32,190 nucleotides of DNA from Dethiobacter sp. GTDB taxonomy: Bacteria; Bacillota; Dethiobacteria; Dethiobacterales; Dethiobacteraceae. Shown here in pieces: positions 5,942-32,016 of the stretch. The notes beneath the pieces were generated by a model that saw nothing but the letters and a program-made list of their open reading frames with translations, had not been told where the DNA came from and made no database searches. Position numbers and translations under genes: made by a program. The DNA is taken from the NCBI GenBank assembly GCA_018333455.1, contig JAGXTN010000077.1, positions 1 through 32,190 of the forward strand. Reading direction: 5' to 3'. Position 1 is the first letter of the stretch. Every line of letters begins with the position of its first letter.

Positions 5942-5980
5942 GCCCTCACCCTAACCCTCTCCCGCAGGGAGAGGGGAATT
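5942..5980 (+). repeat. Dispersed palindromic repeat, family A
   Basis: The core CCCTCTCCCGCAGGGAGAGG is preceded by a CCCTCACCCTAA-type stretch and followed by GGAATT. It forms a strong hairpin. A degenerate relative lies just before it (about 5896-5925). It sits between lysC and the T-box promoter. Other copies are at 6568-6590, 6638-6676, 10229-10266 and 31881-31918, with fragments near 1460, 2080 and 27716. Confidence 0.8.
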
Positions 5981-6063: not shown

Positions 6064-6323
6064 AAGATAACGTAATGACAGGGAAGCAGTATGCAGGGGA
6101 TGAGGATTTCAGAGAGCCGGTGGCGCTGCGAACCGGTGTCCCTCCCTGTTGAAATTACCCCCTCGAGCGGCGGACCGAAATGAAAAGTAGGCTCCGACGG
6201 ATTCCCACCGTTAGCTGGGAAGGGCATTATCCCGCCTGCGGGACGTGCTTACTGAGTGGGCTTTAAGGCCAAATTGGGTGGTAACGCGGATGAATCCGTC
6301 CCTTACAGGGGGGCGGTTTTTTT
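6064..6323 (+). promoter_or_regulatory. T-box leader (tRNA-sensing riboswitch)
   Basis: T-boxes read the charging state of one tRNA and choose between termination and read-through. Stem I is seen with AGAGAGCCGG and the apical GGCGCTGCGAACCGG (about 6111-6135). After it come GAGC (6164-6167), AAGTAGG, the ACGG...CCGTTA stem III region (about 6185-6214), and the T-box sequence GGGTGGTAACGCGG (6276-6289) followed by a terminator. The TGGT bulge would pair with a tRNA ending ACCA, so discriminator base A. The specifier position, read as the triplet before ACC, is ATT (6154-6156, isoleucine); a two-base shift would give TAC (tyrosine). The next gene is aroF, ~580 bases beyond the terminator. Presence of a T-box is near certain; its amino acid is not. 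Confidence 0.9.
6296..6323 (+). terminator. T-box regulated terminator
   Basis: CCGTCCC (6296-6302) pairs with GGGGCGG (6310-6316, one G-U pair), followed by seven T residues (6317-6323). The 5' part of the stem overlaps the sequence needed for the antiterminator that uses the T-box motif just upstream, as expected for transcriptional T-box control. Confidence 0.85.
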
Positions 6324-6378: not shown

Positions 6379-6403
6379 GGGCGGGTTTGAAACCCGCCCC
6401 TAC
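6379..6403 (+). repeat. Dispersed palindromic repeat, family B
   Basis: GGGCGGGTTTGAAACCCGCC followed by CCTAC forms a perfect hairpin. It lies between the T-box terminator and aroF. Two further copies are at 6495-6535 and, inverted, at 31976-32016. Confidence 0.85.
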
Positions 6404-6494: not shown

Positions 6495-6595
6495 CTTGGG
6501 CGGGTTTGAAACCCGCCCCTACATGGTACGAGCGATGGCATAAGTGTTCCCTTCTGCCATCCCAACAATTCCCCTCTCTCTGCGGGAGAGCAACC
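6495..6595 (+). repeat. Composite repeat (family B plus family A half)
   Basis: This block begins with a family B palindrome, continues through ACATGGTACGAGCGA and an AAGTGTTCCCTTCTGCCAT stretch, and ends in a shortened family A hairpin (6568-6590). The first 41 bases (6495-6535) are identical to the reverse complement of 31976-32016. The similarity continues with substitutions and a small indel to the family A part of the right-hand copy. So this is one composite unit, not two independent repeats. Confidence 0.8.
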
Positions 6596-6637: not shown

Positions 6638-6676
6638 ATTCCCCTCTCCCTGCGGGAGAGGGCCAGGGTGAGGGCC
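6638..6676 (-). repeat. Dispersed palindromic repeat, family A, inverted
   Basis: This copy is in the opposite orientation to 5942-5980, reading CCCCTCTCCCTGCGGGAGAG and then GGCCAGGGTGAGGGCC. With the blocks at 6379 and 6495 it fills most of the space between the T-box terminator and aroF. I saw no gene or clear promoter in this part. Confidence 0.8.
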
Positions 6677-6904: not shown

Positions 6905-7933
6905 ATGATTATTGTGATGCAGACCGGTGTGACGGCAGAACAGATTGAAGAGGTGACGGCAAGGCTGCAACAGAGGGGTTTGGGCGTTCATTTATCTGTG
7001 GGAGAATTTAAAACAATTATCGGCGCGATTGGTGATGAGAAGTTGGTGCGGGAGATGGGGCTGGAAGCCTTGCCGTTTGTGGAAAGGGTGCTGCCGATTA
7101 CACAGCCGTTTAAACTGGTGAGCAGGGAGTTTCAGCCGGAAAATTCGCTCTTTCAGGTCGGCGATTGTCTGATCGGTGGTGATGAGGTGGTGTTAATGGC
7201 AGGTCCTTGCGCGGTGGAGAGTGAGGAACAGCTTTTGGAGGCAGCCGAAGGCGTCAAGGCTGCCGGGGCGCAAATTTTACGAGGCGGCGCCTACAAACCG
7301 CGCTCCTCGCCTTACTCATTTCAAGGGCTGGAAGAAGCCGGCTTGCAGATATTAGCCCGTGTGCGGGAGAAAACAGGGATGCCGATAGTTACCGAAGTGA
7401 TGGACCAGCATACTGTGGAGATGGTGGCGGAATACGCAGATATTATCCAGGTAGGCACGCGTAATATGCAAAATTTTTACATGCTGCGGGAACTGGGCAA
7501 GCTAAACAAGCCGATTCTTTTGAAACGGGGTTTGTGCGCCACGATGGAAGAGTGGCTGATGGCGGCGGAATATATTGTTTCCGGGGGGAACCGTCAGGTG
7601 ATTTTATGCGAGCGGGGCATCCGCACTTTTGAGACTTACACGCGCAATACGCTGGATTTATGCGCTGTGCCGGTGATGAAAAGGTTGACACATTTGCCGG
7701 TGATTGTCGACCCCAGCCATGGGACCGGTAGTTGGCGCTGGGTGCCGGCGATGAGCAGGGCTTCGGTGGCTGCCGGAGCCGATGGAGTAATGATCGAGGT
7801 GCATCCGCAGCCGGAGCAGGCGCTCTGCGATGGGGCGCAGTCTCTGACGGTGGAAAAGTTTACCGCACTCGTCGGCGATTTGGATAGACTGGCTGTGGCT
7901 ATGGGGCGGCGGCTGAAAAAGCAGGTGTCTTAA
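6905..7933 (+). CDS. aroF: 3-Deoxy-7-phosphoheptulonate (DAHP) synthase, AroA-I-beta type
   Basis: It condenses phosphoenolpyruvate and erythrose-4-phosphate to DAHP, the first shikimate-pathway step. The 342-residue product has an N-terminal ferredoxin-like domain (about residues 1-70), as in Thermotoga-type enzymes where it mediates tyrosine/phenylalanine feedback. The barrel follows, with GPCAVES (100-106), [16 protein letters not shown] (126-141), KRG and DPSHGTG near the C-terminus. The start ATG follows GAGGAGGG by eight bases. tyrA overlaps its stop (TAATG). An upstream T-box may control it by read-through, but 580 bases of repeats intervene. The symbol follows common Bacillota usage. 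Confidence 0.94.
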
Positions 7934-8838
7934 TGGGAGCGCTCTTTCAGCGCGCAGCTCTGGTAGGTGTCGGCATGTTGGGGGGGTCGCTGGGGCGGGC
8001 CATGCTAAAAAGAGGCTTAGTCAACGAGGTGGTGGGCATTGACCACTGTCCCGGCGTGCTGGCTAAAGCGCTAACGCTTGGTGCCGTCAGCAGCACAACT
8101 GCCTCTTTGCCGGAAGGGGTGGGCGGAGCAGACTTGGTGATTCTGGCTGCTCCGGTTGTGGCTGTGCTGGAGCTGCTGCCAAAAATTGCGCCATATTTAG
8201 CGCCCGGCGCGCTCGTCAGCGATGTGTGCAGCACAAAAAGTGCCGTACTGAATCAGGCGAAGGCTTGCTTGCCTGCGAGCGTTACCTTTCTGGGCGGCCA
8301 TCCTATGGCCGGTTCGGAGAAAGACGGGGTGGAGGCGCTCGACTGGCAGCTCTTTGAAAATGCGGTTTATGTGCTGACCTATACGCTGCGCAATGCTGCC
8401 AGCCGGCAGTTTGTCCGTTTGGTAGAGCAACTGGGCGCTATACCGGTGGAAATGCGGGCGGAGCAACATGACCGGGTGGTGGCAAACATTTCTCATCTGC
8501 CCCATCTGGCTGCTTCCGTGCTGGCGGAAGTCGTTGCCGCCAATAGCCAAGACAGGGAAGAGATTTTAATGCTGGCTGCCGGCGGTTTTCGCGACACTAC
8601 CAGGGTGGCGCTGGGCAATCCGCAGCTCTGGCGGGATATCTGTTTAACTAATCAAAGCGAGCTTGTGATCCTGCTGGATGCCTATCTACGAGAACTTGGG
8701 GCGGTGCGTGATTTGGTGGCGACGGGAGATGAAAATGGTCTGCTCGCTCATTTTCAGCGGGCGCGGGATTTTCGTAGTCGGGTGCCGCTGCCAAATTGCA
8801 CAAGAAAGCGCGGCCAACTTGAATCGGAGGAGGGTTGA
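7933..8838 (+). CDS. tyrA: Prephenate dehydrogenase
   Basis: It oxidatively decarboxylates prephenate to 4-hydroxyphenylpyruvate, the precursor of tyrosine. The 301-residue product has a Rossmann motif GVGMLGGS (residues 12-19), GGHPMAGSE in the active-site region, and the helical dimerisation part containing ISHLPHLAA. It is shorter than Bacillus TyrA, and I see no C-terminal ACT domain, so feedback control by a fused domain is unlikely. Its ATG shares one base with the aroF stop. Its own stop precedes the aroA start by two bases, so the three genes appear translationally coupled. Confidence 0.93.
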   Translation: MGALFQRAALVGVGMLGGSLGRAMLKRGLVNEVVGIDHCPGVLAKALTLGAVSSTTASLPEGVGGADLVILAAPVVAVLELLPKIAPYLAPGALVSDVCSTKSAVLNQAKACLPASVTFLGGHPMAGSEKDGVEALDWQLFENAVYVLTYTLRNAASRQFVRLVEQLGAIPVEMRAEQHDRVVANISHLPHLAASVLAEVVAANSQDREEILMLAAGGFRDTTRVALGNPQLWRDICLTNQSELVILLDAYLRELGAVRDLVATGDENGLLAHFQRARDFRSRVPLPNCTRKRGQLESEEG

Positions 8839-8840
8839 GC

Positions 8841-10145
8841 ATGAAAGTGGTTATCGAGGGCAGTGGTCCGATACGCGGCGAGATAACGGTGCCGGGGGAT
8901 AAGTCCATTTCTCATCGGGCGCTGATTTTAGGCGCTCTGGCTGAGGGAGAAACAGTAATTTCAGGCTTTCTCGCCGGGGAGGATTGTTTATCTACAGCAG
9001 ATTGTCTGCGCAAACTGGGTGTAAGTATCGCTGTGCAGGCGTCGAACGTGCAGGTGGCAGGCGTGGGTCTTTATGGGTTGCGGGAGCCGGCTACCATTTT
9101 GGACTGCGGCAACTCCGGGACGACTGCCCGGCTGTTGCTGGGAATTTTGGCAGGTCAGCCTTTTTACTCGGTGCTGACAGGTGATGGCTCGCTGCGGCAG
9201 CGTCCGATGAGCAGGGTGGTAGAGCCGTTGCGTCGGATGGGTGCGGCAATCTGGGGGCGCAACCAAGGGAAATTGCTGCCGCTCTCAGTGCAGGGCGGAG
9301 TGATGCGTGCGCTGGAATATGTCTCACCCTTAGCCAGTGCCCAGGTAAAGTCAGCCGTTTTGCTGGCGGGGCTGTATGCCCAAGGTATTACGGCGGTGCG
9401 TGAGCCGGAGAAAAGCCGCGATCATTCGGAGAGGATGCTCGCCGCTTTCGGAGCAACAATAGAGGTGGAAGGGAATCTGGTGCGCCTGCAGGGGCAGCCC
9501 AAGCTGCAGGGTCAAGCCGTCCGGGTGCCCGGCGATATTTCTTCCGCCGCCTTTTTTTTAGTGGCAGCCAGTATTATCCCCGGTTCCGATTTGATTGTAC
9601 GCAATGTGGGCGTCAACCCGACCCGGACGGGAGTGCTTGATGTGTTGCGCGAAATGGGGGCAGCACTGGAACTGCTCAACGAGCGATTGGAAAGCGGTGA
9701 GCCGGTAGCAGATATCCGCGTTCAGTCGGCCGATTTGCGCGGGGTGGAGATTGGCGGTGAAATTATTCCGCGCTTGATTGACGAGCTGCCTATTTTGGCG
9801 GTGGCGGCTATGTTTGCCGCAGGCGAAACTTATGTGCGCGATGCGGCGGAGCTGCGAGTAAAGGAGACCGACCGGATCGCGGCGGTGGCTGAAGAATTCG
9901 GTAAGTTGGGGGCAGCAATTACGCCTTTGGCTGACGGTTTTGTGGTGAGCGGAGGGCGGCAGTTGTCTGCAGCCATAACAGATAGCCGCGGCGACCATCG
10001 TATTGCGATGGCGCTCTGTATCGCAGCCTTGGCGGGAAAAGTGCGGCTGACGATGGATTCTGCTGATTGCGTGGTGATTTCTTTCCCCGGTTTTTGGCAG
10101 GCGCTGCGTCAGGGACAGATAGAATGTCTGGATTTTTTGGAGTAG
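8841..10145 (+). CDS. aroA: 3-Phosphoshikimate 1-carboxyvinyltransferase (EPSP synthase)
   Basis: It transfers the enolpyruvyl group of PEP to shikimate-3-phosphate, the penultimate step to chorismate. The 434-residue product carries GDKSISHR (residues 19-26), GNSGTTAR (90-97), GDGSLRQRPM (114-123) and the LRVKETDRI segment. I chose the ATG at 8841 because GGAGGAGGG ends six bases before it; the in-frame TTG at 8835 lies directly against that site. It follows tyrA with two bases between and ends the operon at a strong terminator. aroC and aroB are ~13 kb further on. Confidence 0.96.
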   Translation: MKVVIEGSGPIRGEITVPGDKSISHRALILGALAEGETVISGFLAGEDCLSTADCLRKLGVSIAVQASNVQVAGVGLYGLREPATILDCGNSGTTARLLLGILAGQPFYSVLTGDGSLRQRPMSRVVEPLRRMGAAIWGRNQGKLLPLSVQGGVMRALEYVSPLASAQVKSAVLLAGLYAQGITAVREPEKSRDHSERMLAAFGATIEVEGNLVRLQGQPKLQGQAVRVPGDISSAAFFLVAASIIPGSDLIVRNVGVNPTRTGVLDVLREMGAALELLNERLESGEPVADIRVQSADLRGVEIGGEIIPRLIDELPILAVAAMFAAGETYVRDAAELRVKETDRIAAVAEEFGKLGAAITPLADGFVVSGGRQLSAAITDSRGDHRIAMALCIAALAGKVRLTMDSADCVVISFPGFWQALRQGQIECLDFLE

Positions 10146-10228: not shown

Positions 10229-10266
10229 GCCCTCACCCTAGCCCTCTCCCGGGGGGAGAGGGGATT
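10229..10266 (+). repeat. Dispersed palindromic repeat, family A
   Basis: GCCCTCACCCTAGCCCTCTC is followed by CCGGGGGGAGAGGGGATT. The loop differs from the other copies (GGGG in place of GCAG). It lies between the aroA terminator and bshC. Confidence 0.8.
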
Positions 10267-10344: not shown

Positions 10345-11964
10345 ATGTTTAGAACGTGCCTTTTGCCCGAGGAAAGTAAACCGGGCATCTATCAAGACTT
10401 TTTGCATAATTTGCCCCAGGCTACCCGTTTTTTAGGGCCGCATTATGGAGAGACTGGCGTTTTTGTTGCCAAGGCGGAGCAAGTTTGCGCCGGATTTCTA
10501 GGAGAGCGAGCGCAACTGGCAGAGATGCTGCTTGCTTATAATCGGAGGATGGGCTGCTCAGCCGCGGCTGAGGCTCAGATTGAGAAGCTGCGTGATAGTC
10601 AAGCGGTGGCTGTGCTCTGCGGACAGCAGGCAGGGCTGCTCTCTGGGCCTCTGTATACAATTTATAAGGCGCTTTGCGCGGTGAAGTTGGCGGCAAAGCT
10701 GGAGGTGGAACTGAACCGTCCCGTGGTGCCGGTATTTTGGATTGCGTCGGAAGATCACGATTTTTCCGAGGCTAATCATTGTTATGTGCAGGATAGGGAG
10801 GGTAAGCCAAGGCGTATTCAGTTAGGATTAGCCCATAGCGGAGAGCCCGTCGGGCAACTGCCCTTGACTGAAGAGGCAGGCCGGGAAGTGCTGGCCACAT
10901 TGGCGGCGGTCATGCCTGACTCGGAGTTTGGCGCGGAAATTTTTGGCTGGTTGGAGGAGGCGCGCAGTTTGGCGGCGACGCCGGTAGACTGGTTTGCCCG
11001 AATTATGGCTAAACTTTTTGCAGGGCAAGGGCTGGTATTATTCGAACCGCTTTTAGCCGAAGCGCGGACGCTGGCCTCCGCAGTGTTTTGCCAGGCGATT
11101 CAGCAAAGGGAGGCGGCAGAGTCTGCCTTATTTTTGCGGGAGGAGGAGCTGCGGGCGGAGGGCTATGCGCTGCAGGTGGAGCGCGAAGCGGGCGCCACGC
11201 TGCTGATGCGGCTTGGCAAGAAGCGGACTGCCTTATACTGGCGCGACGGTCATTTTGTCACAAGGGACGGTTTGTTTCGCCGGAGCGAAGCAGAACTGCT
11301 GGAGCAGGCTGTTGCGTTGCCGGAGTCGTTAAGTGCCAACGTTTTATTGCGTCCGCTGGTGCAGGATAGCATTTTTCCTACGCTTGTCTATATCCCGGGC
11401 CCGGGGGAGATTGCTTATTTTGCTCAAGTGACGGCGCTCTATCCTGTTTTTGGCGTCGAGCAGCCGCTGCTTTGGCCGCGGCCGGGAGTGACGCTGGTCG
11501 AACGGCGCCTTGCTCAGTATCTGGAGAAATACCAGGTGGCGGAAGTGGAGCTTTTGCATCGTCTGGACGAAGCGCTGGCACGGGAGATGAAGAAGAAAAG
11601 CGAGCTGGATATCGATAGTATCTTTGCTCATTTGCGCGGTCACTTGGCACTGGAGTATGAGCATCTGAAGCGCGATTTGGCAAAATTAAATCCCCAACTG
11701 GGCGCTTTGGCAGATAAGAATTTGGCGCACGTCTACAATCAAGTGAGCTACTTGGAAGCTAAAGCGCGAGAAGAAGACGAAAAAAAGAGTGCAGTGATGG
11801 TTCGTCGTTTTCTTGCTTTGGAGCAGACGCTTAAACCAAACGGTAAACTTCAGGAAAGGGTCTTTTGTCTATTGCCTTTTCTTTTAAAATACGGCCCGAT
11901 TTTTTGGGAGCAGTTGGCGTCCGAATTTCCTCATCAACCGGGACACCATTTGCTTTATCTTTAG
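10345..11964 (+). CDS. bshC: Bacillithiol biosynthesis protein BshC (putative cysteine-adding enzyme)
   Basis: BshC is assigned to the last step of bacillithiol synthesis, adding cysteine to glucosaminyl-malate. The 539-residue product matches the usual family length. It has the N-terminal nucleotide-binding-like core with VLCGQQAGLLSGPLYTIYK (about residues 90-108), FWIASEDHDFSEANH (about 131-145), YIPGPGEIAYFAQ, and a coiled-coil-rich C-terminal part (about 390-500). The ATG follows GGGAGAG by four bases. It leads a bshC-bshB-bshA cluster, with 47 bases to bshB. I saw no clear promoter in the 160 bases upstream. Confidence 0.93.
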   Translation: MFRTCLLPEESKPGIYQDFLHNLPQATRFLGPHYGETGVFVAKAEQVCAGFLGERAQLAEMLLAYNRRMGCSAAAEAQIEKLRDSQAVAVLCGQQAGLLSGPLYTIYKALCAVKLAAKLEVELNRPVVPVFWIASEDHDFSEANHCYVQDREGKPRRIQLGLAHSGEPVGQLPLTEEAGREVLATLAAVMPDSEFGAEIFGWLEEARSLAATPVDWFARIMAKLFAGQGLVLFEPLLAEARTLASAVFCQAIQQREAAESALFLREEELRAEGYALQVEREAGATLLMRLGKKRTALYWRDGHFVTRDGLFRRSEAELLEQAVALPESLSANVLLRPLVQDSIFPTLVYIPGPGEIAYFAQVTALYPVFGVEQPLLWPRPGVTLVERRLAQYLEKYQVAEVELLHRLDEALAREMKKKSELDIDSIFAHLRGHLALEYEHLKRDLAKLNPQLGALADKNLAHVYNQVSYLEAKAREEDEKKSAVMVRRFLALEQTLKPNGKLQERVFCLLPFLLKYGPIFWEQLASEFPHQPGHHLLYL

Positions 11965-12011
11965 GACTGCCTAACTAGCGGCAATTCTTTTTGAAAGGAA
12001 GTGGCGAGCTG

Positions 12012-12764
12012 ATGAAACTGGATATTTTGGCGTTTGGCGCACATCCCGATGATGTGGAGATTGGTTTTGGCGGCACATTGATTAAACATGCGGCCAAAGG
12101 GTATATGTGCGGAATTGTCGATTTGACTGCCGGCGAGATGGGCAGTAACGGTACGCCTGAGATTCGCAGGCAGGAGGCGCTGCAGGCGGCGGAGATTATG
12201 GGGATGCAGGTGCGGGACTGTCTTGGTTTGCCTGATGCACGGCTTGAGGTAAATGAAGAGAGTAAGCTGGCGGTGATTGAAATAATTCGCAAGTACCGTC
12301 CTCACGTGGTGGTTGGCCCCTATCATGCAGACAGGCATCCGGATCATTTGCGGGCGAGTCAGCTGGTGCGGGAAGCGGCTCATCTGTCCGGGTTGCGGAA
12401 ATATCCGGCGGAGGGTGAGGCATACCGGCCGGCGGTAGTGGCCCAATATTTTCTGGCTGTGCATGGTGAGCCTTCCTCGATTGTGGATATCAGTGAACAT
12501 TATGAAAAGAAGATAGCTGCGCTTTGCGCCCATGAAAGCCAGTTTGGTTTGCGCAAGGGAGCGGACTGGCAGACGCTGGTCAATGACCCGGCGTTTATCA
12601 GAATGATTATCAGCCGCGATCAGTTTGTTGGCTCGCTGATTCAAGTGTTGTACGGGGAAGGGATTTACTTTGAGGAAAAAATGATCCTGGATGACTTAAT
12701 GTCACTGCGGGGGCGGATGCCCAAGTTAGCCATGGAGAGGATTAAGGGGGTGGTGCAGCAATGA
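12012..12764 (+). CDS. bshB1: N-acetyl-glucosaminyl-malate deacetylase (LmbE/PIG-L family)
   Basis: This zinc-dependent deacetylase removes acetate from GlcNAc-malate, the second bacillithiol step. The 250-residue product has the zinc-binding AHPDD (residues 10-14), the EMGSNGTPEIR segment, and HADRHPDH further on. I chose the ATG at 12012 because the product then begins MKLDILAFGAHPDD as in the family. The in-frame TTG at 11991 lies upstream of the AGGAAG site and is unlikely. Its stop overlaps the bshA start (ATGA). Family members also deacetylate other GlcNAc conjugates, but both neighbours fix the role here. Confidence 0.93.
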   Translation: MKLDILAFGAHPDDVEIGFGGTLIKHAAKGYMCGIVDLTAGEMGSNGTPEIRRQEALQAAEIMGMQVRDCLGLPDARLEVNEESKLAVIEIIRKYRPHVVVGPYHADRHPDHLRASQLVREAAHLSGLRKYPAEGEAYRPAVVAQYFLAVHGEPSSIVDISEHYEKKIAALCAHESQFGLRKGADWQTLVNDPAFIRMIISRDQFVGSLIQVLYGEGIYFEEKMILDDLMSLRGRMPKLAMERIKGVVQQ

Positions 12765-13891
12765 ACATTGGCATAGTCTGTTATCCAACCCATGGCGGCA
12801 GCGGCGTGGTTGCTACGGAACTGGGGAAAGAGCTGGCGCTGCTTGGGCATACAGTCCATTTTATTTCGTATCAGCCCCCGTTTCGTTTGGAGCGTTTTCA
12901 GCCAAATGTCTATTACCATGAGGTGGAGATGCTCGGTTATCCGCTTTTTAAATACCCGCCGTATACGCTGGCGCTGATTAATAAAATCGCGGAGCTGGCA
13001 GAGCGTGAAAAGCTGGATATTATCCACGCCCATTATGCTATTCCCCATTCCTTTTGTGCCCATCTGGCCAGAGAAGTGCTGGGAGAGAGCAGCCGGGTAA
13101 AGGTAGTGACAACGTTGCATGGCACAGATATTACCTTAGTGGGGAACGACCCGTCGTTTAAGCGGATTACCCGCTTCAGTATCGAGAAAAGCGACGGAAT
13201 TACGGCGGTATCGCATAGTTTGCAGGAGGAGACGCACCGGACTTTCGATGTCACAAAACCGGTGGAGGTAATCTACAATTTTATCAATACTAAGCGAGTT
13301 TTCCGGCTGCCGGGCGCCAGGCAGCTGATCGGCTGCGTACCGGCAACAGGAAGGGTGCTGGTGCATGTTTCTAATTTTCGGCCGGTTAAGCGAGTGCCTG
13401 ATGTGGTGGCTATCTTTGCTAAGGTGCGCCGCGAGCTGGATGCCAAGTTGCTGCTGGTGGGAGACGGGGTGCAGCGGCAGGCGGCGCAGGCTGCTGTGGA
13501 GCAGTTTGGTTTACAGCAAGATGTGCTGTTTTTCGGTGTGCAGGATAACGTGATCCCGCTGTTGTCTGCGGCGGATCTCTTTCTGCTGCCTTCGGAAAAA
13601 GAAAGCTTCGGCTTGGGCGCCCTGGAGGCGATGGCTTGCTGCGTGCCGGTGATTGCCACACAGACCGGCGGATTGCCGGAGCTGGTGGTGCATGGGGAAA
13701 CGGGTTATCTGGCGCCGGTAGGCGATGTGGATGTATTGGCTGATTATGCGCTGCGGCTGCTCTCTGATGAGAGCTTGCTGCGGCAGACGGGGGAGGCGGC
13801 TCGGCGGCGCGCTGAGGAGCAGTTTGAAAGTGAGCTGATGATCCCGCAGTATGAGGCTTTTTACCGGCGCGTCATGGCAGGCGGCAGCTAG
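12761..13891 (+). CDS. bshA: N-acetyl-alpha-D-glucosaminyl L-malate synthase (GT4 glycosyltransferase)
   Basis: It transfers GlcNAc from UDP-GlcNAc to L-malate, the first committed step of bacillithiol synthesis. The 376-residue product is a GT-B fold GT4 enzyme. The N-terminus has CYPTHGGSGVVATELG, then HAHYAIPHS. The C-terminal half has SNFRPVKR and the donor-binding E-x7-E segment SEKESFGLGALEAMACCVPV. The ATG overlaps the bshB stop by four bases, with AAGGGGGTGG eight bases upstream. Gene order here (C, B, A) is the reverse of pathway order. Confidence 0.94.
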   Translation: MNIGIVCYPTHGGSGVVATELGKELALLGHTVHFISYQPPFRLERFQPNVYYHEVEMLGYPLFKYPPYTLALINKIAELAEREKLDIIHAHYAIPHSFCAHLAREVLGESSRVKVVTTLHGTDITLVGNDPSFKRITRFSIEKSDGITAVSHSLQEETHRTFDVTKPVEVIYNFINTKRVFRLPGARQLIGCVPATGRVLVHVSNFRPVKRVPDVVAIFAKVRRELDAKLLLVGDGVQRQAAQAAVEQFGLQQDVLFFGVQDNVIPLLSAADLFLLPSEKESFGLGALEAMACCVPVIATQTGGLPELVVHGETGYLAPVGDVDVLADYALRLLSDESLLRQTGEAARRRAEEQFESELMIPQYEAFYRRVMAGGS

Positions 13892-13955: not shown

Positions 13956-13984
13956 TTGACAGGCAAAATAGCCCATGCTAAAAT
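13956..13984 (+). promoter_or_regulatory. Promoter of the his operon
   Basis: A perfect -35 TTGACA (13956-13961) and -10 TAAAAT (13979-13984) are separated by 17 bases. Transcription should start near 13991, leaving a leader of only about 40 bases before hisZ. There is therefore no room for a T-box or attenuator, unlike many his operons. Confidence 0.85.
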
Positions 13985-14013
13985 TTAATACGTTAACACT
14001 TTAACGTATTAAA
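13984..14013 (+). promoter_or_regulatory. Operator-like perfect inverted repeat over the his transcription start
   Basis: TTTAATACGTTAA and TTAACGTATTAAA are perfect 13-base inverted copies separated by CACT. The left arm shares the last base of the -10 box, and the predicted start point lies inside the palindrome. A bound dimeric repressor would block initiation. As RNA it would be AT-rich with no following T-run, so it is not a terminator. A TrpR-like protein (YerC/HisR) has been proposed as a his regulator in Bacillota; whether this is its site is inference. Confidence 0.75.
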
Positions 14014-14030
14014 GGAAAGGTTGTGCGGCG

Positions 14031-15230
14031 GTGAATGAGAAGTTAAGAAGATTGCTGACGCCTGAAGGCGTACGGGATCTTTTGCCCGAGCTGGCTGGGC
14101 AGAAGCGGGAGCTGGAAAAGAGGATTCAGGCAAGTTTTAGCCGATGGGGATATGGAGAAGTGTCCACACCGGCTTTTGAGTATAGTGCCAATTTTGTGGA
14201 TGAGATGAAGGCGGAGCTGACAGATAAGCTCTACCGTTTTTTAGATGAACGTGGGAGGACACTGGTGCTGCGTCCGGACTTTACTTTGCCGCTTGCACGG
14301 GTGGTTGCCACGCATTTAGCCGCAAGTCCCTTGCCGCTGCGTTTGTGTTATGGCGGCGATATTTATCGCTATGCCCATGGCCAGCAGGGGAAGCAGCGGG
14401 TAGTGACGCAGGCGGGGGTGGAGTTAATCGGTTCGGGCTGCGCCGGAGCCGACGCAGAAGTGATTGCGCTGGCAGTCGATGTTTTGCTAGAGTTAGGCCT
14501 TGCCGAATTTACTTTTTGCCTGGGTCATGCTGGTTTTCTGGAAAGGATGCTTACCGCTTATGGAGTGGCGGCAGCGGAGCGGGAAACTATTAAGTTCTAC
14601 TTTAATAATAAGGATTTTGTTGCGCTGAAAATGTTGGTGCAGAGCCTTGCCCTCAGCGAGAAAGCTAAGGAGGCTATTTTGCGCGTCCCCGGGCTGCGGG
14701 GCGGCAAAGAGATTTTAGCGGAGGCGGCTGGGCTTGTGCCGGGCGGTGCGGCTGACGAACCGCTGCGTTTGCTGGCAGAAGTATGGGAGGTATTGGCAGA
14801 TTACGGCGCGACCAAGTTTATTACTCTGGATTTGGGTTTGGTGCGGATGCTGGATTATTACACCGGCATGGTTTTTGAAGGGTATACCGGCGGTTTGGGT
14901 TATGCTCTTTGCGGCGGCGGCCGCTATGACCAGCTGCTGGGGCATTTTGGCCCACAAAGGCCGGCGGTGGGGTTTGCCATCAATGTTGACCACGTTTTAA
15001 AAGTATTACAGCGGGGGAGAGAACTGCCTGCCGGCTCGGCGCTTGCTTTTGTGGGTTACGGCAAGGCACAGCGTGCGGCAGCCTTTGCTAAAGCAGCCCT
15101 ATTGCGGCAAGCAGGCGAAAGGGTGCTGGTGGACGTGGAAGAACGCCCGCAGGAGGCGGCTTTGGCCGAAGGAGAAAGGCTAGGCGCGGCTAAAGTGGTT
15201 TATCTAGACGGGAGGGCTGGTAATGGTTAA
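14031..15230 (+). CDS. hisZ: ATP phosphoribosyltransferase regulatory subunit
   Basis: HisZ is a histidyl-tRNA synthetase-like protein without aminoacylation activity. It assembles with short-form HisG and confers activity and histidine feedback. The 399-residue product has class II aaRS-like segments: TPAFEY, RPDFTLPLAR (motif 2 region), LDLGLVRMLDYYTGMVFEGY, and CGGGRYDQLLGHFG. It lacks a full anticodon-binding domain ending, as usual for HisZ. The start is GTG, with AAAGGAAAGG ten bases upstream. It leads the his operon and overlaps hisG by eight bases. A true HisRS is less likely given the short hisG next door. Confidence 0.93.
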   Translation: MNEKLRRLLTPEGVRDLLPELAGQKRELEKRIQASFSRWGYGEVSTPAFEYSANFVDEMKAELTDKLYRFLDERGRTLVLRPDFTLPLARVVATHLAASPLPLRLCYGGDIYRYAHGQQGKQRVVTQAGVELIGSGCAGADAEVIALAVDVLLELGLAEFTFCLGHAGFLERMLTAYGVAAAERETIKFYFNNKDFVALKMLVQSLALSEKAKEAILRVPGLRGGKEILAEAAGLVPGGAADEPLRLLAEVWEVLADYGATKFITLDLGLVRMLDYYTGMVFEGYTGGLGYALCGGGRYDQLLGHFGPQRPAVGFAINVDHVLKVLQRGRELPAGSALAFVGYGKAQRAAAFAKAALLRQAGERVLVDVEERPQEAALAEGERLGAAKVVYLDGRAGNG

Positions 15231-15873
15231 TAAGGATTGGCTGACTGTGGCGTTGGCTAAGGGGCGGATGCTGCCGCCGGCGCTTGAGCTTTTTGAAAAA
15301 GCGGGAATCGGCTGCGGTCAGTTGCGGGAAACCTCGCGGAAACTGGTCTTTACTGTCGAGGAACATAAACTGCGCTTTATTTTGGCTAAACCGATGGATA
15401 TCCCTACCTATGTAGAATATGGTGTTGCCGATTTGGGGGTAGTGGGTAAAGATGTGTTGATGGAACAGGAAAAAGAGCTTTATGAGCTGTTGGATTTGAA
15501 AATCGGTCCCTGCCGTTTGGCGGTGGCGCAAAAATGCGGCGGCGGCAAGTTTAACGGCGGTTATGTCGCTACAAAGTATCCGCGGGTGGCAGAGCGCTAT
15601 TTCCAGGGGCAGGGGAAGCAGGCTGAAGTAATCAAGCTGCACGGTTCTATTGAGTTGGCGCCGCTGCTTAATCTGGCTGACGCAATCGTCGACTTGGTTT
15701 CTACCGGCAAGACGTTAATCGAGCATCATTTGGAAGAAATCGAAGTCATCGCCCAAATTACCTCACGCTTGGTGGCAAACCCCGGCAGCTATCAGGTAAA
15801 AGGAGTGCGGGTAACCGATTTGCTGCAACGTTTGGAGGCGGTCTTGACTGAGGGGGAGGCAAAGCCATGCTAA
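15223..15873 (+). CDS. hisG: ATP phosphoribosyltransferase, short form catalytic subunit
   Basis: It joins ATP and PRPP to give phosphoribosyl-ATP, the first and regulated step of histidine synthesis. At 216 residues it is the short HisG, lacking the C-terminal histidine-binding domain, so it depends on HisZ. LAKGRM near the start and the PRPP-binding DLVSTGKTLIEH (about residues 162-173) are typical. The ATG lies inside the end of hisZ with GGGAGG eight bases upstream, and the stop overlaps hisD by seven bases. Both overlaps suggest translational coupling. Confidence 0.95.
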   Translation: MVNKDWLTVALAKGRMLPPALELFEKAGIGCGQLRETSRKLVFTVEEHKLRFILAKPMDIPTYVEYGVADLGVVGKDVLMEQEKELYELLDLKIGPCRLAVAQKCGGGKFNGGYVATKYPRVAERYFQGQGKQAEVIKLHGSIELAPLLNLADAIVDLVSTGKTLIEHHLEEIEVIAQITSRLVANPGSYQVKGVRVTDLLQRLEAVLTEGEAKPC

Positions 15874-17171
15874 GAGAGTTTAACGCAAAATCATTTCGCG
15901 AAAATTTTGTGCGCCGCGGTTTTGCTGATTTCCCTGCAGAGCTGGCGGCGGTGCGCGCCATTTTGGCGGCTGTGCGCCAAAACGGCGACAGGGCAGTACG
16001 ACAGTATACGCAGCAGTTTGACGGGGCTGCCTTAGAGTTGCTGCGTGTCGGTGAGGATGAGTTTGCGGCGGCGGAGGCAGCAGTGGAGCCGGCGGCGCGG
16101 GAGGCTTTGTTGCGGGCAGCAGAAAATATCCGGGCGTATCATTTGCGCCAGTTGCAAAGCTCGTGGCTGGAGGTCTTGCCCGACGGGGTGGCGCTGGGGC
16201 AGCGGTTGACGGCGGTTGATAGTGTCGGTGCTTATGTGCCGGGAGGGGGCGCCGCTTATCCTTCATCGGTGCTGATGACTGTGCTTCCCGCCCGCGTGGC
16301 CGGAGTAAGGGAAGTGGTGGTAGTGACGCCGCCAAAAGCAAACGGCGAAATTAATCCCTATATTTTGCTGGCGGCAAAAATCGCCGGAGCGGATGCCGTT
16401 TTCAAGTGCGGCGGTGCGCAGGCGGTGGCAGCGCTGGCTTACGGGACGGAGAGCATTCCGCGCGTCGATAAAATTGTGGGGCCGGGCAATATTTATGTGA
16501 CGCTCGCTAAAAGGGAAGTTTACGGCGACGTGGGGATTGATCTGCTGGCTGGCCCGAGTGAAGTGCTGGTGGTGGCTGATGAGACGGCGCGCGCCGATTT
16601 TGTGGCAGCAGATTTATTGTCACAGGCCGAACATGATTTGCTGGCGGCCGCTTATCTGCTTACCACCTCCCGGCGCTTAGCTGCCGATGTGCAGCGGGAG
16701 TTGGCTGTGCAGTCTGCTAAGTTGGAGCGTTGTGATGTGGCGCGACAGGCGCTGATGAAGCAAGGGGCATTGGTGCTGGTTGATTGTCTGGAGGAGGCTT
16801 TTGCCATCGTAAATATGCTGGCGCCGGAACATTTGGAACTGCAAGTTGCCGACCCTTGGGCTGCGCTGGGCAAGGTGCAAAATGCGGGGGCAGTTTTTCT
16901 CGGAGCGTATACGCCGGAGCCGGTGGGCGATTACTGGGCCGGAGCAAATCATGTTTTGCCGACGGCAGGAGCGGCACGTTTTGCTTCGGTGTTATCGGTA
17001 GCTGATTTTATGAAAAAGATGAGTGTGGTATATTACCCGCCGCAGGCTTTGCTTGAGGCGTCTAAACAAATAGAGGCTCTGGCGCGTGTGGAGGGGCTGC
17101 AAGCACACGGGCAGGCGGTGAAGATAAGGAGGGAGTTTCTTGAAAAAACGGGTGGCAAGCATCACACGTAA
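15867..17171 (+). CDS. hisD: Histidinol dehydrogenase
   Basis: This zinc- and NAD-dependent enzyme oxidises L-histidinol to L-histidine in two steps. The 434-residue product has normal length, with YVPGGGAAYPSS, KCGGAQAVAALAYGT, VGPGNIYVT and GPSEVLVVAD. The zinc-ligand and catalytic segments LLSQAEHD and LAPEHLEL are present, and the C-terminal part has GDYWAGANHVLPT. The ATG follows GGGGGAGG and overlaps the hisG stop by seven bases. Its 3' end overlaps hisB by 32 bases. Confidence 0.96.
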   Translation: MLREFNAKSFRENFVRRGFADFPAELAAVRAILAAVRQNGDRAVRQYTQQFDGAALELLRVGEDEFAAAEAAVEPAAREALLRAAENIRAYHLRQLQSSWLEVLPDGVALGQRLTAVDSVGAYVPGGGAAYPSSVLMTVLPARVAGVREVVVVTPPKANGEINPYILLAAKIAGADAVFKCGGAQAVAALAYGTESIPRVDKIVGPGNIYVTLAKREVYGDVGIDLLAGPSEVLVVADETARADFVAADLLSQAEHDLLAAAYLLTTSRRLAADVQRELAVQSAKLERCDVARQALMKQGALVLVDCLEEAFAIVNMLAPEHLELQVADPWAALGKVQNAGAVFLGAYTPEPVGDYWAGANHVLPTAGAARFASVLSVADFMKKMSVVYYPPQALLEASKQIEALARVEGLQAHGQAVKIRREFLEKTGGKHHT

Positions 17172-17730
17172 AACGGGGGAAACTAGCGTGGCGTTGAGCT
17201 TGGTGCTCGACGGTGAAGGCAGAGTTTCGCTGGCTGCCGGAGTGGCTTTCTTTGAGCATATGCTGACGCTTTTTGCACAGCATGGGTTTTTTAATCTTGA
17301 GCTTGAAGCAGAGGGCGATTTGCCAGTGGATGCTCACCATCTGGTGGAAGATGTCGGTTTGGTGCTGGGAGACGCTTTTGCCGAAGCATTGGGAGATAAA
17401 GCGGGGATTAAAAGATACGGTTCTGTTCTTTTACCGATGGATGAGGCGCTGGTGCAGGTGGCGGTAGACCTTTCAGGGCGTCCGTACTTAGGCTTTAAGC
17501 TGAATTTGCCCTCTACACGCCTGGGAAATTTTGAGACAGAGTTGGTGGAAGAATTTCTGCGTGCTTTTGTCAACCGGGCGAAATGTACGCTGCATGTGCA
17601 GCAACTGGCGGGGAGCAATACGCACCATCTGATTGAGGCGGTATTTAAGGGATTGGGACGGGCATTGGATGAAGCTACTGCGCTGGAGCCGCGGCTGAAG
17701 GGGATACCCTCAACCAAGGGTATCTTATAG
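17140..17730 (+). CDS. hisB: Imidazoleglycerol-phosphate dehydratase
   Basis: This manganese enzyme dehydrates imidazole-glycerol phosphate to imidazole-acetol phosphate. The 196-residue monofunctional product carries the duplicated metal-binding motifs DAHHLVED and NTHHLIEA. The start is TTG at 17140: AAGGAGG ends seven bases before it, and the reading begins MKKRVASITRKT, as expected for HisB. It lies inside the last 32 bases of hisD. A perfect eight-base hairpin occupies the last codons, and a 71-base gap follows before hisH. Confidence 0.94.
   Translation: MKKRVASITRKTGETSVALSLVLDGEGRVSLAAGVAFFEHMLTLFAQHGFFNLELEAEGDLPVDAHHLVEDVGLVLGDAFAEALGDKAGIKRYGSVLLPMDEALVQVAVDLSGRPYLGFKLNLPSTRLGNFETELVEEFLRAFVNRAKCTLHVQQLAGSNTHHLIEAVFKGLGRALDEATALEPRLKGIPSTKGIL
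17703..17724 (+). other. RNA hairpin at the end of hisB
   Basis: GATACCCT and AGGGTATC form a perfect eight-base stem with a CAACCA loop. It lies inside the last codons of hisB, just before the only real gap in the his cluster. TTATAGG follows rather than a T-run, so it is at most a weak terminator; mRNA processing or stability control is equally possible. Confidence 0.4.
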
Positions 17731-17801
17731 GAGAAGATAAACCTAGCGGATTAGCAGGATTTTTCTTTTAATCGGGGAATATAGAAGGGCGGGAGTCAGC
17801 G

Positions 17802-18410
17802 ATGATCGCTATTATTGATTACGGCGGAGGGAATCTGCGTAGCGTGCAAAACGGTTTTGCCGCAGCCGGTCTGCCCACGGTGGTTTCTGACGAGCCGCAC
17901 GAACTGGAGGCGGCGGACGGCTTGGTTCTGCCCGGCGTGGGCGCATTTGGCCAAGCGATGAAAAATCTGCGGGAAAGCGGCTTAGGGCAGCTGCTTTTGC
18001 GCCGGGTGGCGGCGGGAGTGCCGTTGCTTGGTATCTGTCTTGGTCTGCAGCTCTTATTTGACAGGAGCGAGGAGAAGGGGGAACATGCCGGGTTGGGGTT
18101 GATTGCAGGCGCTGTAGTGCCTTTTCCCGGTGTGCTGAAAGTGCCGCAAATCGGCTGGAATCAACTGTCTATCCTGCGGGAGCACCCACTGCTGGAAGGG
18201 ATTTCTCAGGGGGACTACTTTTATTTTGTGCACTCATTTTATGCTTGCCCCACTGACCCTGAAGTAGTTTTGGCCAGCGCAGACTACGGGGGAGCTTTTC
18301 CCGCCGTGGTACAAAAAGATAATTTATTTGGGATTCAGTTTCATCCGGAGAAAAGCAGCCGGTTGGGTTTACAGATTCTGAAGAATTTCGGGAGGTTGGT
18401 GGAATGCTGA
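17802..18410 (+). CDS. hisH: Imidazole glycerol phosphate synthase, glutaminase subunit
   Basis: HisH releases ammonia from glutamine and channels it to HisF. The 202-residue product is a class I glutamine amidotransferase with the nucleophile in LGICLGLQLL (Cys79) and the His-Glu pair in FHPEKS (His181, Glu183). It has normal length. The gene follows a 71-base gap after hisB and overlaps hisA by seven bases (ATGCTGA). HisF is encoded one gene further on, completing the two-subunit enzyme. Confidence 0.96.
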   Translation: MIAIIDYGGGNLRSVQNGFAAAGLPTVVSDEPHELEAADGLVLPGVGAFGQAMKNLRESGLGQLLLRRVAAGVPLLGICLGLQLLFDRSEEKGEHAGLGLIAGAVVPFPGVLKVPQIGWNQLSILREHPLLEGISQGDYFYFVHSFYACPTDPEVVLASADYGGAFPAVVQKDNLFGIQFHPEKSSRLGLQILKNFGRLVEC

Positions 18411-19132
18411 TCATTCCCGCCGTAGATATTCGAGACGGACGGTGCGTGCGGTTAGTTCATGGCGAGTTAGCTAAGGAAACAGTCTATCATGCGGATCCAG
18501 TGGCGGTAGCGCTGCGCTGGGAGGCGGAAGGGGCGGCCCGCATCCATCTGGTGGATTTGGACGGTGCGTTTCAGGGTGGGATGCAAAACAGCGCTGTGAT
18601 TGAGCAAATTGCCCGGGCGGTTAAGGTTCCGGTGCAGGTGGGCGGCGGGATTCGAGATGAAGCCAGAGCGGCCGAATTGTTAGACCGAGGCGTCTCCCGC
18701 GTAATTTTGGGCACGGTAGCGGTGACTTCTCCCCGGCTGGTTGAAGAGCTGTGTTATCGCTTCCCCGGTCAAGTGCTGGTGGGGATTGATGCCCGGGCGG
18801 GGCGGGTTGCCATCCGCGGCTGGGTGGAGGAGGCGGAGCAGAGCGCGATTGATTTGGCCTGCAAAATGGGAGACTTGGGCATTAAGGAAATTATTTATAC
18901 CGATATTAACAGGGACGGGACGCTGCAGGGGCCAAACTTGGTGGCGCTGGAGGAAATGGCAAAGGCAGTCAGCCTGCAGGTAATCGCCTCGGGCGGTGTC
19001 TCATCCCTGGATGATCTTCAGAAACTGTGTCTCCTTGAGCCGCTGGGGGTTAGCGGCGTGATTTTGGGACAGGCTCTCTATACCGGGCGGGTTGACTTGC
19101 GTGATGCGCTGAAAATAGCGGGGTGCGCTTAG
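18404..19132 (+). CDS. hisA: Phosphoribosylformimino-5-aminoimidazole carboxamide ribotide isomerase
   Basis: HisA catalyses the Amadori rearrangement of ProFAR to PRFAR. The 242-residue beta-alpha barrel begins MLIIPAVDIRDGRCVRL, with the catalytic Asp8. The second acidic residue lies in YTDINRDGT, and phosphate-binding VGGGIR and ASGGVSS are present. The ATG overlaps the hisH stop, with GGGAGG upstream. It abuts hisF with no intervening base, so the paralogous barrels HisA and HisF are encoded head to tail. Confidence 0.96.
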   Translation: MLIIPAVDIRDGRCVRLVHGELAKETVYHADPVAVALRWEAEGAARIHLVDLDGAFQGGMQNSAVIEQIARAVKVPVQVGGGIRDEARAAELLDRGVSRVILGTVAVTSPRLVEELCYRFPGQVLVGIDARAGRVAIRGWVEEAEQSAIDLACKMGDLGIKEIIYTDINRDGTLQGPNLVALEEMAKAVSLQVIASGGVSSLDDLQKLCLLEPLGVSGVILGQALYTGRVDLRDALKIAGCA

Positions 19133-19912
19133 ATGCTCGCGAAGCGAATTGTGCCTTGTCTGGATGTGAAGGATGGGCGCGTGGTAAAAGGCACACAGTT
19201 TGTACAGCTACGCGATGCCGGCGATCCAGTGTCTTTGGCTCGTTTTTACGATTTGGCCGGCGCCGATGAACTGGTATTTTTGGATATTTCCGCCTCACAT
19301 GAGGGACGGGGGACGATGTTGGATGTTGTGCGCCGTACGGCGGAACAGGTCTTCATTCCCTTTATTGTGGGCGGCGGCATCAGCCGGCTGGAGGATGTGC
19401 GCCGGTTGCTGGGTGCCGGGGCGGATAAAGTGTCGCTAAATACGGCGGCTGTAGAAAATCCGCAGTTGATTTCCGCCGCCGCAGAGCATTTCGGCTCGCA
19501 GTGCGTCGTGCTGGCGGTGGACGCAAAATGGAACGCGACGCTCGGCACTTGGGAGGTCTATACGCACGGCGGACGGAATGCCACGGGCAAAGATGTGCTT
19601 ACCTGGGTGGCGGAGGGAGAACGGCTTGGCGCCGGCGAAATTCTTTTAACGAGCATGGATTGTGACGGCGGCAAGGACGGATATGATTTGCGGCTTACAG
19701 CGGCGGTGGCAGAGCAGGTTAATCTTCCGCTGATTGCCTCCGGCGGCGCCGGTACGATGGAACATTTTTATGCGGCGCTGACGGCAGGGAAAGCGGATGC
19801 CGCGTTGGCTGCCTCTGTTTTCCATTATCAGGAGTTTAGTGTGGCGGAAGTCAAGCTGTATCTTCGAAAACGGGGGGTGCCAGTGCGCTATGACGAAATT
19901 GAAATTTGCTGA
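19133..19912 (+). CDS. hisF: Imidazole glycerol phosphate synthase, cyclase subunit
   Basis: HisF uses ammonia from HisH to convert PRFAR to imidazole-glycerol phosphate and AICAR. The 259-residue barrel starts [20 protein letters not shown], with Asp11. It has VGGGISR, the second catalytic aspartate in [14 protein letters not shown], and [11 protein letters not shown]. The ATG directly follows the hisA stop. No strong ribosome site precedes it, suggesting translational coupling. The last 23 bases overlap hisIE. Confidence 0.96.
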
Positions 19913-20522
19913 AGATGGCTTGATTCCGGTGGTAATCCAGGAGGCAGAAACGCAGCGGGTGTTGATGCTTGCCTATATGAATGAGGAGGCACTGCAAAAA
20001 ACAATCGCTACCGGCCAAACTTGGTTTTACAGCCGCAGCCGCCAGGAACTTTGGCACAAGGGCGCCACATCCGGCCATTTTCAGCAGGTAAAACGGATTG
20101 ATTATGATTGTGACGGCGATGCGCTGCTCGTGCAGGTGGAACAGGTGGGTGGCAGCGCCTGTCATACGGGAGCAACCAGCTGTTTTTACGAAACGCTCTT
20201 TGGCGATGCATCTGTCGGTACGGCTAACTTTCTGGCGGAATTGGCACAAATTATTGAGGAGCGGAAGATAACTAAGCCGGCTGGTTCATATGTGGCTAAA
20301 CTTTTTGAGCAGGGGCTGGATCGGATTTTAAAAAAAGTTGGCGAAGAGGCGGGCGAAGTGATTATTGCCGCTAAGAATCAAGATCGCACGGAACTAATTT
20401 ATGAAAGCAGCGATTTATTTTTCCATCTGTTGGTGTTGCTCTCGGAAAAAAATGTGACGCTGGCGGAAGTCTTGCGGGAGTTGGCTAGACGCCACCGTCC
20501 TGCGACTGCGGGGCAGGCATAA
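19890..20522 (+). CDS. hisIE: Bifunctional phosphoribosyl-AMP cyclohydrolase / phosphoribosyl-ATP pyrophosphatase
   Basis: It carries out steps two and three of histidine synthesis. The 210-residue product has the HisI domain first (about residues 1-105), with zinc- and magnesium-binding DCDGDA (73-78) and CHTG (91-94). The HisE MazG-like domain follows (about 115-205), with [14 protein letters not shown] chose the ATG at 19890 inside hisF because it gives the normal N-terminus ([15 protein letters not shown]). The frame is open further upstream, but that part is unlike HisI. Its stop shares a base with hisJ (TAATG). Confidence 0.95.
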
Positions 20523-21331
20523 TGTTTGTGGATTATCATTTGCATACCGTCCGTTGTTGTCATGCCAGCGGCAGCTTGGCAGAATATTTGGCGGAAGCAG
20601 AGAAAAAGGGGCTGGCTGAAATCGGCTTTGCCGACCATTTCCCCTTGGACTTATTTGGTGTAGTGGAGGATGAGCCGCTGACGATGCGTGCCTCAGAGCT
20701 GCCCGATTATATCCGGGATGTGGAGTTGCTGCGCCAGCAGGCGAATATCCCTGTGCGTCTTGGCGTGGAGGTGGAATATCTGCCCGGACGGGAACGGGAA
20801 ACTGCCGAAATGTTGGCTGGTTACGGTTTCGATTATGCCATCGGCTCAATCCACTATCTTGACGGCTGGGATTTTACCCATCCCGGTCAAATCGAACGCT
20901 ATAAGCTGGAAGATATTGATGCTCTCTATGAGCGCTACTTTACGCTTGTACAGCAGATGGTAGCCAGCCGCTTGTTTCAAATTATCGGTCACTTAGATGT
21001 GGTCAAAAAGTTTTCCTTTTTCCCGCGCCGGAGATGGGAGCATCTGCTGGAAAATACCTGTCGGGCAATAAAACAGGCAGACGTCTGTGTGGAGCTAAAT
21101 ACTGCAGGTTGGCGCGCGCCGGTAGGTGAGGCTTACCCAGCAGAAGCTTTTTTGGCAAAGTGTTCCGAAATGAACGTGCCGGTGACGATGGGTTCCGATG
21201 CCCACAAACCACGGGACGTCGGCAGCGGCTTGCACCGTGCCGCGCTGCTCCTGCATAATTTGGGCTTTAAGGAGATAGCGACTTTTAACGCAGGGCAGCG
21301 GCAGATGCGTCCGCTGACATGGTCAGGCTAG
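20522..21331 (+). CDS. hisJ: Histidinol-phosphatase, PHP family
   Basis: It dephosphorylates L-histidinol phosphate. The 269-residue product is a PHP-type trinuclear metal enzyme with DYHLHT (His6, His8), FADHFP (Asp38, His39), GVEVEYLPG, GSIHYLDGWDF, IGHLDVVKKF and GSDAHKP in the expected order. It is unrelated to the HAD-type phosphatase of enteric bacteria. It closes the his cluster and is coupled to hisIE by a one-base overlap. With hisJ present, hisC is the only biosynthetic step missing from the cluster. Confidence 0.93.
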   Translation: MFVDYHLHTVRCCHASGSLAEYLAEAEKKGLAEIGFADHFPLDLFGVVEDEPLTMRASELPDYIRDVELLRQQANIPVRLGVEVEYLPGRERETAEMLAGYGFDYAIGSIHYLDGWDFTHPGQIERYKLEDIDALYERYFTLVQQMVASRLFQIIGHLDVVKKFSFFPRRRWEHLLENTCRAIKQADVCVELNTAGWRAPVGEAYPAEAFLAKCSEMNVPVTMGSDAHKPRDVGSGLHRAALLLHNLGFKEIATFNAGQRQMRPLTWSG

Positions 21332-31880: not shown

Positions 31881-32016
31881 GCCCTCACCCTAGCCCTCTC
31901 CCGCAGGGAGAGGGGATTTGCAGGGAAGGAAGATGGGGGGGGCTGTTGAGATGGGAGAAGGGAATACTTATACCCTCGCTCGTACCATGTAGGGGCGGGT
32001 TTCAAACCCGCCCAAG
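31881..32016 (-). repeat. Composite repeat (families A and B), inverted copy of 6495-6595
   Basis: A full family A unit (31881-31918) is followed by a spacer and then a family B palindrome. The last 41 bases (31976-32016) are the exact reverse complement of 6495-6535. The spacer also matches the left copy imperfectly. The IS110-type frame begins directly at its right edge. Confidence 0.85.

Follow-up and report, generated by a model that had tools for sequence, protein, structure and literature searches.

The perfect 30-bp inverted repeat at the his promoter of Dethiobacter sp. is very probably the operator through which HisR (YerC) represses the his operon, with histidine-loaded dimers bound at overlapping sites spaced 8 bp apart. 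The element almost certainly belongs to a known kind, the HisR operator, and that assignment settles how the his operon is probably controlled here. The arrangement of the sites differs from the published description, and it is this arrangement that we analyse below together with the alternative readings of the repeat.

The palindrome at the his promoter

The repeat consists of TTTAATACGTTAA (13984-13996), the spacer CACT (13997-14000) and TTAACGTATTAAA (14001-14013), letter for letter as the original prediction had described it, and comprises four TTAA cores (13985-13988, 13993-13996, 14001-14004 and 14009-14012) that follow one another in steps of exactly 8 bp. No other perfect inverted repeat in the window, which is the whole stretch of 32,190 nucleotides analysed, is as long: its arms measure 13 bp, versus 10 bp for the runner-up (spacers of up to 20). 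In 40 first-order Markov shuffles no arm reached at least 13, the maximum being 12. The features of the promoter and the operon are as follows.

13956-13961, + strand: -35 box TTGACA of the his promoter (promoter scan; TTGAC upstream of hisZ in 18 of 18 family members)
13979-13984, + strand: -10 box TAAAAT, TG-extended (promoter scan); its final base is base 1 of the palindrome
13984-14013, no strand: 30-bp palindrome, 13 + 4 + 13 (sequence; shuffles; kept in relatives)
14031-15230, + strand: hisZ with a GTG start, the first gene of the operon (TIGR00443 hisZ, 331 bits)
15223-21331, + strand: hisG, hisD, hisB, hisH, hisA, hisF, hisIE and hisJ (Pfam and NCBIfam)

The promoter scan counted 11 of 12 consensus bases and a spacer of 17 nt between the -35 and -10 boxes. 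The expected +1 would lie at about 13991, inside the palindrome, which spans the -10/+1 region and ends 17 bp before hisZ. The scan agrees with the earlier statement that the repeat opens with the final -10 base and includes the start point, the +1 being a predicted one. The leader from the predicted +1 to the GTG at 14031 measures ~40 nt, the length given before, and carries no Rfam element. The nine genes that had been proposed for the operon were confirmed by Pfam and NCBIfam in the order hisZ-G-D-B-H-A-F-IE-J (14031-21331); hisC is not among them. A genome search for further copies of the palindrome, which the original prediction had suggested, found it to be single-copy in the 2.26-Mb draft assembly when up to 3 mismatches were allowed, and the many unrelated copies that would have spoken against an operator did not appear.

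Conservation was examined in the 18 family members that have hisZ, the present genome included. In-phase cores are present at this promoter in all 18, and in 16 of them the 30-bp frame begins 27-30 bp after the TTGAC of the -35 box; the arrays of G007 and G014 are displaced, with the 8-bp phase kept. A lack of conservation upstream of hisZ, the other outcome that had been named as speaking against the operator, was thus not observed, as the palindrome is kept in 16 of the 18. Alignment of the 16 sites revealed that C-n-TTA is invariant or nearly so at columns 8-12 and 16-20, as are TAA-n-G at columns 19-23 and 27-31 and a further TTA at columns 2-4. The pairing between the arms amounted to 91.8%, compared with 26-41% in slid versions, and joint changes of the arms occurred in 7 cells versus 3.2 in shuffles that ignore relatedness. 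The clearest joint change is found in G020, which belongs to another family and in which the arms have changed together (TTTAGTGCTTTA/TAAAGCACTAAA).

HisR and its box

The genome contains one TrpR-family gene (G000:C98:4354-4656), which lies away from the his operon. Its product scored 138.7 bits with TIGR02531 (YerC), far above the curated cut-off of 42.2, and 22.7 bits with the TrpR model TIGR01321, below the cut-off of 67.25. The closest solved structures are the 'Trp repressor' entries 3kor, 3frw and 3g1c. A TrpR operator proper, responding to tryptophan, was rejected because the sole TrpR-family protein fails TIGR01321. Downstream of hisR there are ORFs of 705 and 668 aa, whose sizes correspond to those of pcrA and ligA, the genes that come next after yerC in B. 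subtilis; the likeness is one of size only. A HisR gene was present in each family member examined.

According to the main text of PMC9413887 (Ashniev et al. 2022), YerC is the histidine repressor HisR, whose binding site in Bacillota is a 20-bp palindrome with the consensus cacTTTAnnnnnnTAAAgtg. In that account HisR of R. gnavus, the one species assayed, bound the hisX site in vitro and required histidine. The assay was performed with an isolated 20-bp site between poly-G flanks, so that tandem binding would not have shown. We located the best match to the consensus at the right side of the palindrome.

13997-14016, + strand: HisR box B, CACTTTAACGTATTAAAGGA, 12 of 14 specified bases of cacTTTAnnnnnnTAAAgtg

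The comparison with the HisR motif, which had been proposed earlier, therefore gave a fit with 2 mismatches. The centre of box B lies 8 bp to the right of the centre of the palindrome. The original prediction that the palindrome is the operator thus stands, but the HisR box proper is off-centre, and the 30-bp palindrome is better described as a tandem array. The TrpR-like YerC/HisR that had been offered as a candidate regulator is likewise supported, although it is more than a candidate in the literature, as HisR had already been published with in vitro binding in one species. The preference for a DNA-binding repressor over a T-box or attenuation is borne out by the HisR gene, by the match to the consensus and by the conservation in register with the promoter.

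When the genome was searched with cacTTTAnnnnnnTAAAgtg at 3 mismatches, 68 places were found, compared with 107 for the reversed control, so that hits at this level carry no information. The ten other places with 2 mismatches lie mostly within ORFs, and no recognisable histidine gene is associated with any of them. The four-core pattern with 1 mismatch occurred at about chance level except for the his sites. No family-3 amino-acid solute-binding protein was found in the genome, and hence there is no HisXYZ target in it. The his operator is the sole convincing HisR site in this genome, and there is no second regulon member that confirms the motif.

Evidence from outside the window was obtained from 106 other genomes of the phylum, in which the 450 bp upstream of hisZ were scored with the 20-bp box (strong, a score of at least 18) and the presence of HisR was called independently by TIGR02531. 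A strong box was detected in 41 of 77 genomes with HisR but in 0 of 29 without it (Fisher p = 3e-8, relatedness uncorrected), and in 25 of the 36 HisR-bearing families. These genomes link the box to HisR without recourse to the window. The sole exception found, a palindrome without HisR, is the incomplete draft of G020. In G013, a family member that lacks hisZ, a HisR-like box with no core at -8 precedes a gene for a family-3 solute-binding protein by 29 bp; as expected, this box would fit a histidine transporter under HisR, the kind of transporter that HisR controls elsewhere.

No strong HisR box was found before hisR itself (best score 15). The gene here neither adjoins the his operon nor follows such a box, unlike the HisR systems described in the main text of PMC9413887. 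The hisR match is preceded, at a distance of about 84 bp, by an AGGATTT-N12-ACGAAT element, which is kept in 15 of 19 family members, and most members of a sister family have the form AGGAWTT...AAGAAT ahead of hisR. We take the element to resemble a promoter for sigma-H, which acts at the onset of sporulation. A sporulation defect has been reported for yerC mutants of B. subtilis (PMC4703394, PMC11914059). In one relative, a 198-aa protein with two tandem Trp_repressor (PF01371) domains is encoded at G006:C63 556-1152, and an ordinary HisR is present as well.

Proposed tandem sites and alternative readings

Besides box B, the array contains two further candidate sites of the same length.

13989-14008, no strand: HisR site A, TACGTTAACACTTTAACGTA, with the same centre as the palindrome; CnTTA-N6-TAAnG near-invariant in 16 relatives
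13981-14000, no strand: putative third, weaker site C (TTTA-N6-TAAC), overlapping the -10 box

Site A lies 8 bp upstream of B, and the two share one core. In site C the left TTA is invariant or nearly so, and the right half-site (TAAnG) is poorly conserved among the 16 aligned sites, which makes three dimers less sure than two. Judged from its sequence, the palindrome could accommodate overlapping sites for HisR dimers, two of them well supported and a third weaker.

The 41 strong boxes of the phylum allowed us to ask how general this phasing is. The core at -8, which lies outside the 20-mer used for selection, was TTAA-like (at least 3 of 4 bases) in 76% of these boxes; in 20 of the 25 families this held for the majority of members. 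The corresponding values were 38% at -16 and 32% at +16, and off-phase offsets were TTAA-like in ~9% on family average, with single offsets of up to 43%. At least three contiguous in-phase cores were present in 36 of the 41 boxes. It is moderately likely that, at his promoters across Bacillota, HisR operators generally consist of TTAA-type half-sites arrayed in tandem with a strict 8-bp phase and not of single 20-bp palindromes, that two to three HisR dimers bind them cooperatively, in the manner of TrpR at aroH and trp, and that the four-core symmetric form seen here is the fully developed version. The main text of PMC9413887 presents one 20-bp palindrome and says nothing of tandem sites for HisR; judged against that text, the tandem architecture has apparently not been described so far.

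A HisR operator for a single dimer, in which only one 20-bp box works (B, or the central A) and the other in-phase cores arose by chance, from constraint on the promoter or as relics, is a less likely account, though one to be taken seriously. It agrees with the motif in the main text of PMC9413887, which is one 20-bp palindrome, and with the binding of HisR to an isolated 20-bp site reported there. The weak conservation of site C, the transporter box of G013 without a -8 core and the 5 of 41 boxes with only two cores also fit it. It does not readily explain why the -8 core is TTAA-like so much more often than the average off-phase position, nor why both arms are symmetric over their full 13 bp and have in places changed jointly. 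That another dimeric regulator reads the operator in place of HisR is quite improbable. Such a regulator could account for G020, where the co-varied palindrome before hisZ (G020:C253 5965-5994) is kept and no HisR was detected by PF01371 or TIGR02531 in the 92%-complete draft; in its congener G023, which is 75% complete, neither HisR nor a hisZ hit was found. The simplest reason for the missing HisR of G020 is sequence absent from the draft, a different reader of the palindrome being the other possibility. The match of the site to the HisR consensus, the restriction of strong hisZ boxes to genomes with HisR and the HisR gene in every family member examined all argue against a different regulator at the operator studied here.

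The repeat might also work as RNA, either as a hairpin of the his leader (an attenuator or a stability element) or as the terminator of the upstream gene, and the 30-mer in full length would, as RNA, have a folding energy of -10.5 kcal/mol (z = -5.3). However, transcription is predicted to start at or after the first bases of the repeat, so that the his mRNA can contain it only in part, and the leader from the predicted +1 folds no better than its shuffles (z = -0.02). Neither a T run nor a terminator-like site nor an Rfam match was found at the locus, and the shifted arrays of G007 and G014, with their 8-bp phase intact, fit DNA half-sites rather than a hairpin. A role as RNA is thus extremely unlikely. 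A his T-box or attenuator at hisZ was rejected on the same leader z-score and on the lack of an Rfam T-box or his-leader match.

Proposed mechanism and related systems

In the mechanism that we favour, histidine-loaded HisR dimers would occupy B (13997-14016), A (13989-14008) and perhaps C (13981-14000) when histidine is plentiful, and neighbouring dimers would share TTAA cores from adjacent faces of the helix. Bound HisR would cover the -10 box and the start point and so keep RNA polymerase off; when histidine is low, HisR would let go and the his operon would be transcribed. The binding at this site, the number of dimers, their cooperativity and the repression by occlusion are what we infer from these comparisons.

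The element resembles the HisR operators of Bacillota described in the main text of PMC9413887 in its position at the his promoter, in its cacTTTAnnnnnnTAAAgtg box and in the presence of a HisR gene in the genome, and also in that the strong box is absent where HisR is absent and that a transporter gene is the likely target in a relative without hisZ. It differs from them in that four cores at 8-bp intervals form a symmetric array of 30 bp, whereas the operator described there is a 20-bp palindrome. With the TrpR operators of E. coli (trp, aroH and trpR) it has in common a repressor of the TrpR fold, an amino acid as corepressor and half-sites 8 bp apart. Multiple TrpR sites are present within the aroH and trp operators (Kumamoto 1987, as cited in PMC7518442), and TrpR dimers bind cooperatively in tandem (PMC8745587). 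The differences are that the sites here have a TTAA core and CnTTA half-sites instead of the GNACT/CTAG of TrpR, that the ligand is histidine, and that the repressor scores as YerC rather than TrpR. Leaders with his T-boxes and his attenuators are alternative controls of his operons in Bacillota according to the main text of PMC9413887; unlike these, the present locus has no Rfam match and only the short leader.

With this assignment the HisR regulon comes to include a Dethiobacter-like lineage that the main text of the PMC9413887 survey does not name. The array also suggests a correction to the model of the operator, in which the number of in-phase cores would set the steepness with which the his genes respond to histidine. 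The likeness to TrpR suggests that tandem binding with shared cores may be an old property of the TrpR fold, common to the tryptophan- and histidine-sensing branches.

Several other elements were observed in the window. Directly upstream of the his operon (10345-13891) lies a bacillithiol-type cluster with bshC (TIGR03998), a PIG-L deacetylase and a family-4 glycosyltransferase, the latter two being likely bshB and bshA. A T-box leader (Rfam RF00230, 111.5 bits) is present at 6066-6306, upstream of aroF-tyrA-aroA (6905-10145). The palindromic 21-mer GGGCGGGTTTGAAACCCGCCC has three copies in the window (6379-6399, 6498-6518 and 31993-32013), where none is expected by chance. A dispersed palindromic repeat, CCCTCTCCC-NNN-GGGAGAGGG, has four copies (5955-5975, 6642-6662, 10242-10262 and 31894-31914), which are partly interleaved with those of the 21-mer. 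In congeners, similar GGAGAGGG stretches, comparable to this dispersed repeat, are found upstream of hisZ and hisR.
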